Assembly: GCA_964035015.1 (NCBI GenBank)
Contig: OZ035998.1
Location: 13,355,643-13,419,642, forward strand
Length of the DNA: 64,000 nt
DNA from: Corallium rubrum
Taxonomy: Eukaryota > Cnidaria > Anthozoa > Scleralcyonacea > Coralliidae
Direction of reading: 5' to 3'
The notes beneath the pieces are model-generated. The model was not told the origin of the DNA. It did not search any database and was given only the letters and a program-made list of their open reading frames with translations. Shown piece by piece: positions 459 through 45,600 of this stretch. Numbering within the stretch: the first letter of the stretch is position 1; each line of letters begins with the position of its first letter. A program made the translations under genes and the position numbers.

Positions 459-673
459 TCCCCGATAAACCAAAAGGCGTTTCACCAAGAAAAAATTCTT
501 CCAGTTCCATCGATGTTTCCTGGGCTGCTCCAGACCACCCTTATGGCGTCATAGTTCTTTACCGCATTTCTTGGAAGTTATTGAAAGATGATAACAACGA
601 ACTGTTGAAAATCAATCTTTCAAACAAGAAGATGTCTCGGCAACAACCAAAGCATACACCATTTTGAATTTAA
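459..673 (+). pseudogene. FN3 first-half exon, unit A1, with 1-nt deletion
   Basis: The acceptor tttgtttag precedes 459 and the donor gtgagt starts at 674. The translation begins [15 protein letters not shown] and has the FN3 B-strand VSWAAP and C-strand YRISWK. It is nearly identical to the exons at 6626 and 25827 but 215 nt instead of 216: one C is missing near 604 (aacgaactg against aacgaacctg). The frame then runs into TGA at 665. Either this copy is dead, or the exon is skipped (its neighbours are all phase 1-1), or the base is a consensus error. Confidence 0.8.
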
Positions 674-3600
674 GTGAGTTATCAAATATGTATACTTTAT
701 GTAACTAACGACATTGTTAAAAGATTAATCTATTGTTGAAGAGAATGTTATTGTCTACACTCTACAGTTAGGTCATACACTATAACGAATTTGGATGACT
801 TATTAAAACATTTTCTAATTAAAGATTATCGTATCCGGGAAGGAATAGATTGTGGAAAAATTTGTTGTAGACCAAGGACCAACCCTTTCAATTTTGCCGG
901 TTGAAATTTGGATGAGAAATTAATAAAAATCTGATCAGCATAGGATTTTCCGTGTAGAAGAAATGCTTGATTTCCCCATCCTTATTTTATGCAAACATTT
1001 TTGCATAATTTTGGTACATGTCTATGTCTCGTGAGCTAGACTGGTTAGCAGAATGCTCGTTTTCTTTTTAAACATCTCTAAGGCCTGCGCTAAACGTCGC
1101 ACAATCGGCGAATTTAATTCAGACGAATTTAATTGTTTGAATTTTATTCGACGAAACTACGACGTATAACTCGATTAAATTCGACACATGAATTAAATTC
1201 GCCTGGGCAATTAAATTCGTTTGAGTCAGACGGATAGTGCGTGTTCGCGTTACACGACGAATTATCGTCGCGTCGAATTAAATGTTTCTCTCTTGTCTGT
1301 GACATTCGGCGCCATGTTTTCAAGAAATCGTTTTCAGGCCTCAACGCGTCCAAGTAAAAACAATTAAATTCGACTGAAATTCGACGTTTAACTCGACGTT
1401 GCATTTACGTCGCATTACCAACGAAGTTCATTCGAATTCATCTGAATTAAATTCGTCTATTGTGCGACGTTTAGCGCAGGCCTAATAACCCGCTGGCGGA
1501 GGAATATTCAGTCCCTGATTGCGCTCTTGTTTATGTATATTAATGGCGATATGCTTTTGCAACAACCTGCGTAAGTTACGTGGACAAGATTTACTCAGCT
1601 TTACTCGGCGTATTCTTTCTCGGCCTAGTGTTATCGCCTTATCGGTAACAACTAAAATTTAATTTAATTTTTTACAGCATCAACATATGTTCACTGATGT
1701 GTATTTCGTATATTTTGTGGTTTCTATATTTAAAATATGTTTTAATCGTGCTAAATGTTTATAGCATTTTTCTCAAGTAAAACGGAAAATTTTGCGCGTG
1801 AAATTGTTGGGGTTTTTTGAGATTTGCAACATTTTTGTGTAAATTACAACGTTATATTCTACGGATATTTAGTGGAGAAATTGGAGTATGTATTATTTAA
1901 GAAATAGAAAAGATTTTCCGTGTTTCTATAGAGTATAGAAACGCGAGGGGAAGTTTTGGAGAACGAGAAATTGCTGTGAAAAGCACACCTCCCAAACTTT
2001 CACAAGTGTTTCTATAACTTTAGGAACATGGAAAACATGTTTTCTTTTGTTTTATGAATGAATCAAATTTAATTATAATTGTATATTGGATTGCGTTTGG
2101 CGTAGTGATTGGCATATAATGTACCCTGCGAGTCATGCAGAGCCCCTTTCTGACCTACGTGCAGGCTTCGGGGGAAAGTGGGCTCTGCCAATAAACTCGA
2201 TATTTTTTTTGAGCATGTGTGAACAGTTGCAAGATACTATTTTGGGTCCAGGCTCTAACGCGTTACTTGCTATGTTCCTACTAACGTGTGTTCATTAAAC
2301 TAGAACTTGTTTGACCCAGTGGCGTAGCCAAGGGCGGGCCAGGCCGGGCTCAAGTCCGGCCAATCCGCATCAAGGATGTCATTCATTATTCTACTACGCG
2401 TTTTCCATGCGTGATTTGTGTACTCGTGACTAAAGAATCTATACCGCACGCTATTTCCGCTAACATACTTGTATGCACAATAAATACATAATCAAACTGA
2501 CTAAAATGTTTGCCGCAATCCTCCAAAAAAATAATATAAATATTTAATTTTCGTAATTTATAATCTTCAGAATTCTGCAAATTCTTTCCCTAAAATGCAG
2601 GCAATGGCATTTCAAAACCCCTAAATTTCAAAAATTTCCCGGGGCATGCTACCCCCTTCTTTAGAAATGTCACTTCGTGCCCACCCAATTGGTCAACCCT
2701 GGCTACGCCACTGGTTTGACTTTGACCAGTTTAAAACCTGACTGACTCGCCCCAAACTTGGGGCGAAGATCGAGTTTGTTGGAGAGCCCACTTTCCCCCG
2801 AAGCCTGCGTAGGTCGGAAAGGGGCTCTGACTCGCAGGGTACATATAATGGTGTTTCTATATACAAAATTTGACTAGAACGATGGCGTGTTGGATGACGT
2901 AATCTTTCCTTGTTTTCCTTAGAGTTAAAACACAGCTTTTAATCAATCACCGCTTGCGTTTTTAAAATGTTATTTTATAAATCTTATTGTTTAGAGCCAT
3001 ACCATCTTTACAACATTTCTGTGTCTGCGTTCACAAGTATTGGTGAGGGGGGGCGTAGTTTTGTTCAAGAAAGGACCAATCAGTCAGGTTTGTGTCATCT
3101 ATTTTTAATTGTCATTGTGAGTATCTATGGGATGATGTGTCCGTGTTTTTTGTCATAACTACTCATAACTCATCTTTACAACATTAAAAAATCGTCTTTA
3201 CAACATTACCGTGTCTGCATTAACAAGCATTGGCGAGGGGGTCCAAGATTTTGTTCAAGAGAGAACAAATCAATCTGGTTTGTTTTATTTTTATTTATTT
3301 GGTGTTGGTGATGGTGATGGTGATGTTGATCACGGTGGTGATGGTGATCATGATGGTGATGGTGATATTGTGATGTTGCTGAAAGAAGCAAACTTTTTTC
3401 CTAGTTTGCTTGGGTTTCGCTTTCATTGCTAAGCACTTTATACTTTCCAGAATACTGCTTGTTGACAATGAATTCTATTATATCAATATTTTTTCTGCTA
3501 CTTTATTTAGTCCCTAATCAACCAACAAACGTTTCAGCAACAAAACAATCCCTCAACTCCGTCGATGTTTCCTGGGACGCTCCATATCACCCTAATGGTA

Positions 3601-42600: not shown

Positions 42601-45600
42601 AGTACCTAACGCCTGTCCTAAAAATATTGGTACATCCGCTTTGGGACCATACAGCGTTCGAGTAAACTGGGAAGGGATAGCTGAAATACATTGGCGTGCG
42701 GAGAGCATTTCATACATTGTGAACTACAGAACTAAAGGGACGACGACTTCTAAACAATCGAGAGTAAAGGAGGTTGCTGGTAGCGGAAAAGAGTTTAATC
42801 TGGTACTTGATAGATTGAAGCAAAATACCTCTTATGTCGTGTATGTATTGGCAAATAACTCAATTGGAAACGGATGTCATAGCGAACGTGTGACGCTCAA
42901 AACAAATCTTTGTAAGTCTAAAAGGGTACAGTTGATAAAATTTGTTGGAAACTTCCTATTCAAAATTTATTGGGTTTTTTATTGTTTATTTGTTTTAAAA
43001 CAAATTACTGCAGGAATTTGTGTTTTTTTGTTGTGGATGGTTTTGTGGGAGAGCAAAGCGAGTGAGAAGAGATGTTGAGATATTGTCAACATAATCCCTG
43101 GAACTTTTTCATCGAAAATCTTTTTTCCGAATGTTGTCCGAAATTTTTTGCGTTGTTTTCCTTTTGTTTTTCAGTACGTTTTTTTTTAAAGATTAAAGTA
43201 AACAGTTTTCTATTTGAGATATCCTACTTCATTTAAGACTATATATTTTGAGTCAGAGGGCAGTGTCTATTTCCAGGCACTAATATATAAGAGCGCGAGG
43301 GGTTGTTGCATTTACGTATTTCTAGTTAAAGTAATGTCTTTACGGATCGTCTTTTCAAGCGTCAGAGTAAAGTCGTTCTCAAATTGTTCTGAGTGCCATT
43401 TTCATTAATTTTGTTTAAAGAATTGATGGGTAGCTGGTTAATTCCTTTTACAGTTTGTGATCCCATAGATAATGGAAGGGGAACTGGATAGGAAACTTAC
43501 GAAACCGGAAACGATGTTTGCACAACTTGCTATGGTAATTTTACGCTTATATGCGGGCAATGCACCTAACGGGTGGTCCCACATGGCTAAAATCAGACAC
43601 TGCTGAACTTAAGTGATATTACACTTTTGTCTAATTTCAGCAATAGGTGCATATTAGCTGCTTATAAGTGTGTAATTACCATAGCAAGTTGTGCAAACAA
43701 CGTTTCCGGTTCTTTAACCTCGTTTGAAGTTTCCTATGCAGTTCCCTTTCAATGATCTATGGTGATCCTAATGGCCCATTTCCACTCAGGAGAATTTTCC
43801 TCGGACAGGAAATTTCCCTTTGTCATGAGAGCTCTTGGGCAGAACTAATGAGTTTGAGACAAAAGAAAATATCCTGTCCAAAGAAAATTTTCCTGAGTGG
43901 AAATGGGCCTTTATAGCGTACCGTCGAGCTGCTATTAATAGCCCAAAAAGCGGACAAACAAGCCAAAATTGACTTTCAAATGATTGCAAATTATCCATTA
44001 TCTATTGTTCGGACTGCAAGAATTGTGGGTAAAAGTGGACAAATATAAATCCTGACGTCATCACGACGGAGCGCTATTATTATAATATAAAACTTTGAAT
44101 ACTTTTACTATCAATTTCATTTATGTTATACACCAAATCGTAATTTCATTTAGGCCCACATGCAAATTAGTTTCCTATTCAATTTGGGCCCCTATGCATA
44201 CCTCGTATCTATTAAAGGGAAGATAACATAGGCTGGGACTGTTTTTTCATGTTTTGAGTTCATTATTTTTAGACACTACGTTTAGGGTTATTGTCAAGGA
44301 TAATCGATAAGCAAAGTTTATCCTTACAGAATACCTAAACATTAAAAAGTTTCTGAAATCAGAAATGTTATGTTTACTACGGCTGCTTCAGCCTCATGTT
44401 ATAAATGAACTACGTTTTATCCCGACTCAGATTAATGTATGCGCAGTCGAAACTCCGATTTCGTCTATTGTGTTCACATGTTTGAAGTTGGATTGGGGGT
44501 CTAAGTTCGATGAAGGGAGTCCATATTTACAGATAATTTAGACCCCCGCTTTACATATCGCCTAGTAGATTTGGACCCGGAAGCCCATATCTGCTTGTAG
44601 ATTTAATGGGGACTTAGGGGGCGATTACATGGACCGGGCCAGCTCGGTTAACCTGGCTAGCCTACTTTATATATAAAACGCATGTTGTTTTAACATTTCG
44701 ATTACATGGTAAGTGGGCTGGCCCGGTTTGCCGGGATCCCAGTTGTCGCAACCGAGCTAGCCCGGTTAACCGGGATGAAAATGTCCATGTAATCGTTTTC
44801 ATCCCGGCAAACCGGCTGAAAAACTGTTGAACTCGCTTCGATACGCGTTCGTTTGCTTGACTGTGTGAATAAATAGTGCTGAAAGGAACTGAAATAGAAC
44901 ATCAACGTTGTTTGTGTGTTTCGTGATCAAAGCGAAGATTTAATAAATTAATTAGTCTTCGTGAAGACGCTTTCTTGGTTAGCTAAGACTTTAACAATAT
45001 TTTTATTAACGATGGGCTTACAGAATAGATAATAGGTGGTGTGCAACCAATCCCTTGAGATTCGAAGGACAAAGCTATTTTCGCCATGTTGGTGATATTA
45101 TTATTGTAGATGATGAAAATCTTTTGAAAACGTCAGCCAACATGGCAGCAATGACGTAAGATGCACACCAGCAATAGACTAATTAGTGTAAAACTGAAGT
45201 AAAACTAACGTAACTTTGCCCTTGTTTACTTAATAATTGCGAATTTCGGCCTGAAATCATCCCGGTTAACCGGGCCAGCCCGGTCCATGTAATCGCCCCC
45301 TTAATAAACTGGGACACCTGCGGTTATTTTTAGACTGCTGCTATTTTCACACTATATATACTAGAGGAATGTTGCGAGGTATAACGTCAAACTCGACCAA
45401 GGTTATCACGAGAAATCAGTATTCACCAAAGTATTTCTACTATGTTTCCTCTAGAAAACCATTATTTATGTAAAATAAAAGTAGCGTGCTGCGTAGGCAG
45501 TGTAGAAACAACAATCGAAATATAGTAAGGTTAAATATACTGCCGAAACAGAGAACGTGGTGGTCTAACGTTTCGAGCGAAGGCCCTTCGCTCGAAACGT

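Follow-up and report, generated by a model that had tools for sequence, protein, structure and literature searches.

The window, a 64-kb stretch of Corallium rubrum DNA (C8:13355643-13419642, forward strand; assembly of 474 Mb in 312 contigs), contains an array of fibronectin type III (FN3) exons followed on the same strand by a transmembrane exon and by exons of two protein tyrosine phosphatase (PTP) domains, D1 and D2. Together these parts probably encode an octocoral receptor PTP with a long FN3 ectodomain, one transmembrane segment and two PTP domains of the LAR/PTPRS class, the array being made of copies of an inherited two-exon module with all introns in phase 1. We call this locus W and give positions upstream of the window start as negative coordinates. 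The window and 110 kb of flanking sequence were scanned with profiles made from both FN3 half exons, and exon borders were then set by AG/GT signals and phase. An a exon encodes the first half of an FN3 domain and a b exon the second half, which we take to correspond to strands A to E and to strands F and G, respectively. Types T1 to T7 are named by a-exon sequence; the last two FN3 domains are called MP1, with two exons, and MP2, with a single one. In the window and just beyond it, the exons are as follows.

459..673, plus strand: T6 a exon of 215 nt, broken by loss of 1 nt near 601, with an in-frame stop
2995..3087, plus strand: T6 b exon, 93 nt
about 3193..3279, plus strand: b-exon remnant cut by junction J1, without start and acceptor
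3511..3726, plus strand: T5 a exon, 216 nt
5295..5387, plus strand: T5 b exon, 93 nt
6626..6841, plus strand: T6 a exon, 216 nt
9089..9181, plus strand: T6 b exon, 93 nt
9753..9962, plus strand: T7 a exon, 210 nt
17628..17720, plus strand: T3-type b exon, 93 nt, second half of a chimeric domain that starts with the T7 a exon
20974..21189, plus strand: T4 a exon, 216 nt
22308..22400, plus strand: T4 b exon, 93 nt
22627..22842, plus strand: T5 a exon, 216 nt
24500..24592, plus strand: T5 b exon, 93 nt
25827..26042, plus strand: T6 a exon, 216 nt
28362..28454, plus strand: T6 b exon, 93 nt
29357..29569, plus strand: a exon of MP1, a membrane-proximal FN3 domain, 213 nt, with a counterpart in a Xenia protein
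41466..41558, plus strand: MP1 b exon, 93 nt
42603..42911, plus strand: MP2, single-exon FN3 domain, 309 nt, matched once in the genome search
52951..53238, plus strand: juxtamembrane and transmembrane exon, borders predicted from AG/GT
56363..62706, plus strand: PTP D1, with PF00102 pieces at 56363-56629, 58595-58759, 60175-60306 and 62521-62706
65678-68034, end given near 70347, plus strand: PTP D2, beyond the window

The scan revealed 19 FN3 domains, 18 encoded by two exons (mostly 216 + 93 nt) and one by a single exon (309 nt). An earlier note on this DNA had reported a exons of 210-216 nt with one of 215, b exons of 93 nt with one truncated, and a single 309-nt exon; all are present as it listed them, and the phase 1-1 borders it described hold for the intact exons. 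It had placed the array at 459..42911. The exons there are real, but the array starts at -27192, 27 kb upstream of the window, and ten further a/b pairs lie between -27192 and -778. The domain order is T1, six T2, a 200-N assembly gap (-9884..-9685, the sole N run within the 174 kb examined), T3, T4, T5, T6 (broken), T5, T6, T7, T4, T5, T6, MP1 and MP2. From -27192 to 42911 only FN3 domains were detected, and the 5' end was not found. Pfam, run on six of the 19 domains with a cut-off of 25 bits, called fn3 in all six (38-65 bits).

All array introns, inside as well as between domains, are in phase 1 at the intact exons. Each intact exon thus has the properties of a class 1-1 FN3 module, with 3n bases and phase-1 introns on either side. 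When 35 of the 37 exons of window and flank are joined in order, leaving out the broken a exon (459-673) and its b partner, they give 1,852 residues free of stops. Introns inside domains account for 32,367 of the 50,398 nt of array intron (64%), and those between domains for 18,031 nt.

Downstream, Pfam Y_phosphatase scores 279 bits on D1 and 276 bits on D2. The best PDB matches of D1-D2 are PTPRS (634 bits) and LAR (625 bits), as against 580 bits for PTPRA. In alignment with PTPRS, WPDHGVP and an intact HC(X)5R are read in the window for D1; D2 has WPDIGSP and HC(X)5R, the serine of its HCS being read across an intron. We take these to be the WPD and HC(X)5R motifs of PTPs. Both domains are thus present, unlike the single PTP domain of the R3 group, and a tandem PTP closest to LAR/PTPRS with intact catalytic motifs in D1 would belong to the R2A (LAR-type) class. 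The earlier note had called an active tyrosine phosphatase, and the predicted domains with these motifs agree with a phosphatase. Search of the genome gave one match for D1 exon DNA and one for the MP2 protein sequence.

Two loci related to W were found on the same contig. A 501-base array query gave at least 41 matches, all on C8, in W and in two loci called M and P (best 40 of 61 candidates scored). Locus P (C8 6.20-6.27 Mb, minus strand; 110 kb fetched) aligns with W piecewise and in the same order between about -38.6 kb and 10.05 kb, at 88-99% identity including introns. Locus M (C8 13.134-13.277 Mb, minus strand; 10 kb fetched) is the neighbour of W, head to head; its main aligned pieces share 93-97% identity with W and 90-91% with P. 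Seven module-unit matches in M are spaced about 1.4 kb, at 13.2066-13.2154 Mb.

A tree was made from 32 a exons (18 of W, 12 of P and 2 of M). Exons of types T1, T3, T4, T5, T6 and T7 cluster by type across W and P, with support of 0.93-1.00, and not by locus; the types are therefore older than the loci. The T2 copies share one clade with T4 (support 1.00). By this tree a single two-exon module gave rise to the copies, and their constant exon sizes are therefore not independent coincidences. Types T4, T5, T6 and T7 occur once each in P, in gap-free sequence, versus 2, 3, 3 and 1 times in W, or 1, 2, 2 and 1 times without the 11-kb copy described below. A contrast in T2 (one in P, six in W) was rejected because a 200-N gap (C8:6261642-6261841) lies inside the T2 intron of P, where copies may be missing. 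The T3 count is likewise unusable, as the W gap is located just before T3. A reading of the T2 run as half-shifted units was dropped.

The comparison of W with P also shows that the exons are frame-protected. In nine collinear alignments covering 13 whole exons, the 2,066 nt of exon contain a single indel event, namely the 1-nt loss from exon 459-673, versus 137 in 16,634 intron nt, and substitutions are close, at 37 per kb in exons and 44 per kb in introns. Pooled over six a and six b pairs, leaving out the T5 a exons (the P exon was not delimited at that stage), W-P dN/dS is 0.39, with 0.47 for a exons and 0.15 for b exons. Strong positive selection was rejected on these counts. Residues 52-58 are the most variable in a comparison of eight a exons, drawn from T2 to T6 of W and, for three of them, from P (T1 and T7 were omitted for length); we presume that these residues belong to the C'-E part of the FN3 fold.

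Within W, repeated blocks are arranged around the following features.

3175..3190, plus strand: junction J1, where the two 6-kb copies meet; 13 nt inserted there repeat adjoining sequence
12174..17356, plus strand: AGATAG microsatellite of 5.2 kb within the intron that splits T7; the 11-kb copy has its left edge where this repeat ends (junction J2)
17348..28541, plus strand: second copy of an 11-kb block, the first being -7885..3174, with 99.45% identity over aligned bases

A 6-kb tandem duplication of T5-T6 is found at -2858..3174 and 3191..9267, the copies being 95-98% identical. Its junction (3174/3191) cuts into a b exon and leaves the acceptor-less remnant at 3193. The copies of the 11-kb block differ by 60 substitutions in 10,991 aligned nt (0.55%) and by 12 indels; 8 differences lie in 1,019 exon nt and 52 in the 9,972 nt outside exons. 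The a exon 459-673 has lost a base, giving a stop, and its 11-kb copy at 25827-26042 is intact. The sequence would fit two nested duplications, the 6-kb one and then the 11-kb one, that multiplied the T4-T6 block.

The T7 a exon now precedes a T3-type b exon because the left edge of the 11-kb copy falls in the intradomain intron. At locus P, the first b exon found downstream of T7 is not the T3-type one. The chimeric T7a/T3b domain is a complete FN3 domain (Pfam 55 bits), and it is in frame because the inner intron is in phase 1. Provided that the assembly is correct there, it is one clear half-domain exchange. Such intradomain breakpoints need no special cause, given the share of array intron that lies inside domains. 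The in-frame gain of blocks and half domains proposed in the earlier note is thus borne out for block duplications and, in the sequence as assembled, for this single exchange. Skipping of one half exon would keep the frame and leave an incomplete FN3 fold, if a and b exons correspond to the strands assigned above.

We then compared W with known systems. PMC5336234 describes FN3 domains with flanking phase-1 introns in receptor phosphatases, some of them with an inner phase-1 intron (1:1:1). The R3 group (PTPRB, PTPRJ, PTPRQ), with its many-domain FN3-only ectodomain, resembles the part of the W ectodomain found so far, and shares with it phase-1 flanks and some 1:1:1 domains. However, its FN3 domains are described there as mostly single-exon (1:1) and its PTP as single, whereas W has two LAR/PTPRS-like PTPs, nearly all domains 1:1:1 and near-identical recent copies. 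LAR and the R2A group (PTPRS, PTPRD, PTPRF) share the tandem D1-D2 with W and are the best match of both domains together. Unlike them, W has many more FN3 domains and a D2 that keeps WPD where PTPRS D2 has WPE, and no upstream immunoglobulin (Ig) domain was found; a simple Ig motif search of 33 kb upstream, in which the 5' end was not located, gave no match. Class 1-1 modules suited to exon skipping are reported from animals in PMC8001218. W has the same symmetrical phase-1 modules that can be gained or skipped in frame, but its inner intron is also in phase 1, so that half domains are exchangeable too. A phase-1 inner intron is thus already known in FN3 domains of receptor phosphatases. No paper was found in the open-licence literature on a LAR-class tandem PTP that combines a near-pure array of 1:1:1 FN3 domains with recently copied blocks and a domain put together from halves, nor a matching one on cnidarian FN3 receptor phosphatases or half-domain repeat growth.

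Search with the PTP part gave five anthozoan proteins as best matches (Nematostella, Montipora and Acropora, 58-61% identity; 120 listed of 7,998 scored). Four of the five have long repeat ectodomains, P0002 being short (1,147 residues). These hexacoral receptor phosphatases resemble W in the PTP part (Nematostella P0001, 59%; Montipora P0003 and P0004, 58 and 58%; Acropora P0005, 58%). They differ in that PF07679 and PF13927, presumably Ig families, are listed for them, and their FN3 domains are weakly like the W array (13-30 bits). P0001 has Ig-like units, with two stretches of 195 residues identical; P0003, P0004 and P0005 combine Ig with FN3, and 12, 13 and 16 of their stretches, respectively, match the a-exon profile.

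The closest protein to the array itself is Xenia P0121 (PTPRQ-like isoform X3), with 683 bits, the next of the 76 matches having 479. Xenia is an octocoral. P0121 belongs to the same FN3 family, with 37% identity over the whole 927-residue query, and has counterparts of MP1 and MP2 (41% and 43%; 26-29% crosswise). Its start resembles a signal peptide, as judged by eye, and Pfam finds no Ig family in it at E 0.001. Unlike W, P0121 contains a two-domain unit repeated four times (80-91% identical), and its model lacks a transmembrane segment and a PTP. The mitochondrial contig of the assembly, C129, carries cox1, then small-subunit rRNA and a gene that we take to be nad1, and has six MutS_V matches. 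Mitochondrial MutS occurs in all octocorals and is absent from the hexacorals examined, according to PMC3166940. By this gene the assembly belongs to an octocoral, and an initial reading as a ceriantharian was discarded. C129 holds several full or partial copies of cox1 and MutS in both orientations, as though joined end to end.

The 11-kb pair may have arisen by duplication or in assembly. The latter, with two haplotypes placed in tandem or with a false join at the 5-kb microsatellite, is a serious if less favoured possibility; the real allele would then have fewer domains and no T7a/T3b. The number of differences between the copies is within what we take to be the range of ordinary heterozygosity, and the left edge of the second copy coincides exactly with the end of the microsatellite. 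The 200-N gap lies 1.8 kb upstream of the first copy, FN3 matches on contig C60 score the same as those on C8, which suggests unpurged haplotigs, and exon T6 is broken in one copy and intact in the other. On the other hand, there is no N run at the 11-kb junction, and D1 and MP2 each gave a single match, so that the search showed the 3' part in one haplotype only. The 6-kb duplication, which lies inside and has its own junction, is independent of the pair and shows block duplication. Expansion by this duplication is well supported. The "rapid" expansion claimed in the earlier note leans largely on the 99.45% pair, possibly alleles joined in assembly.

The FN3 array and the LAR-type PTP could also belong to separate adjacent genes of like orientation, the first of which stops before the transmembrane exon. 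We regard this as unlikely, even though the Xenia array protein stops just past MP2, the interval from MP2 to the transmembrane exon holds one candidate exon only, found by eye in 50120-50491, and the genome search gave no match to MP2, D1 or other PTP sequence at loci P and M. The transmembrane and PTP exons would need an upstream ectodomain, and MP1 and MP2 are there in order and phase; moreover, in hexacoral relatives a PTP of this kind is joined to a long array of FN3 or Ig domains. A receptor that differs in domain content from one individual or transcript to another, for recognition of self or neighbours, appears quite improbable. It would agree with block gains specific to the locus (W versus P), with intact exons that can each be skipped without loss of frame, with the high variability of a-exon residues 52-58 and with near-identical repeat units in the Xenia (FN3) and Nematostella (Ig) relatives. 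Splice sites might contribute: the donor GTTTGT ends all 17 array b exons of W and 11 of 12 in P (the remaining one is GTTTGA), and such a weak donor closing each domain could favour skipping. The a-exon donors are GTGAGT or GTGAGC in the 17 W array a exons, whose ends were picked with a GTRAG filter, and GTGAGT (11) or GTATGT (1) in P. For splice diversity, as proposed in the earlier note, the one lead is by analogy. Three predicted NCBI isoforms of an Acropora millepora relative (P0007, P0009, P0010) have no substitutions between them and differ by three FN3-sized blocks (98, 98 and 95 residues) plus one residue; a fourth, P0006, differs at a further 134-139 residues. These are, however, predicted models from another genus and prove nothing for W. 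The pooled dN/dS below 1 also argues against such a receptor, and no paper on one was found in the literature, as judged partly from titles. The allorecognition role, which the earlier note gave as an inference, would be speculative.

Several observations weigh against the single receptor PTP that we favour. Placing the array, MP and PTP exons on one mRNA is an inference, to which the end of the Xenia model and the genome search at P and M, both given above, are unfavourable. A search for annotated proteins that combine all these parts, limited to lengths up to about 2,784 residues, listed 120; some are nameless, and none is named as an octocoral's. The 41% link of MP1 to Xenia is modest, as a W array domain is 35% identical to Xenia MP1. 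The open frames conserved between W and P yielded neither a 5' exon nor a signal peptide, and the N-terminus was not located. The broken a exon would truncate the protein unless skipped. As to constraint, dN/dS exceeds 1 in two of the six a-exon pairs (T3, 1.39 with 6 changes; T7, 1.79 with 19 changes), and the exons of the 11-kb copies differ no less than the rest, so that no constraint is visible at that age.

Other features were observed in the introns of W. The MP1 intradomain intron contains a GC-rich block at about 31900-36200 (0.505 at 32001-34000) with a 301-codon open frame on the minus strand, probably a mobile element. An 87-bp unit is repeated three times, 98% alike, at 41040-41300, just 5' of the MP1 b exon. 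A palindromic 530-bp repeat is located in a PTP intron (57418-57947), and its genome copies are mostly about 96% identical (best 40 of 5,891 candidates). DNA of 52900-58800 was dropped as a probe for a second PTP copy because this repeat swamped it, and a single exon was used instead. Genome-wide, 83 PTP matches were counted per exon, many of them clustered on FN3-bearing contigs (C8, C13, C22, C52 and others); the genome may thus encode many receptor phosphatases.

In the receptor PTP that we favour, a breakpoint in any intron, within or between domains, would keep the frame because every intron is in phase 1. As most of the array intron lies inside domains, a random breakpoint would often give a chimeric yet complete FN3 domain, such as T7a + T3b. 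The protein may be a phosphatase for adhesion or ligand sensing, and turnover of the array may change how far it reaches and what surface it offers for binding, between paralogues and between lineages, with purifying selection acting on the domains and most free variation in the C'-E region. That the half domain is the unit of turnover, with inner-intron duplications making in-frame chimeras and domain number and composition varying between alleles in support of variable recognition in octocorals, is a proposal we hold to be very doubtful. A link to recognition would matter more, and is a speculation here. If the assembly is right, W would show ectodomain growth caught in the act, with nested duplications, a truncated exon, a broken domain, a domain from two sources and collinear relatives. 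The long-standing idea that phase-1 introns promote the growth of extracellular domains would then be testable breakpoint by breakpoint and domain by domain.

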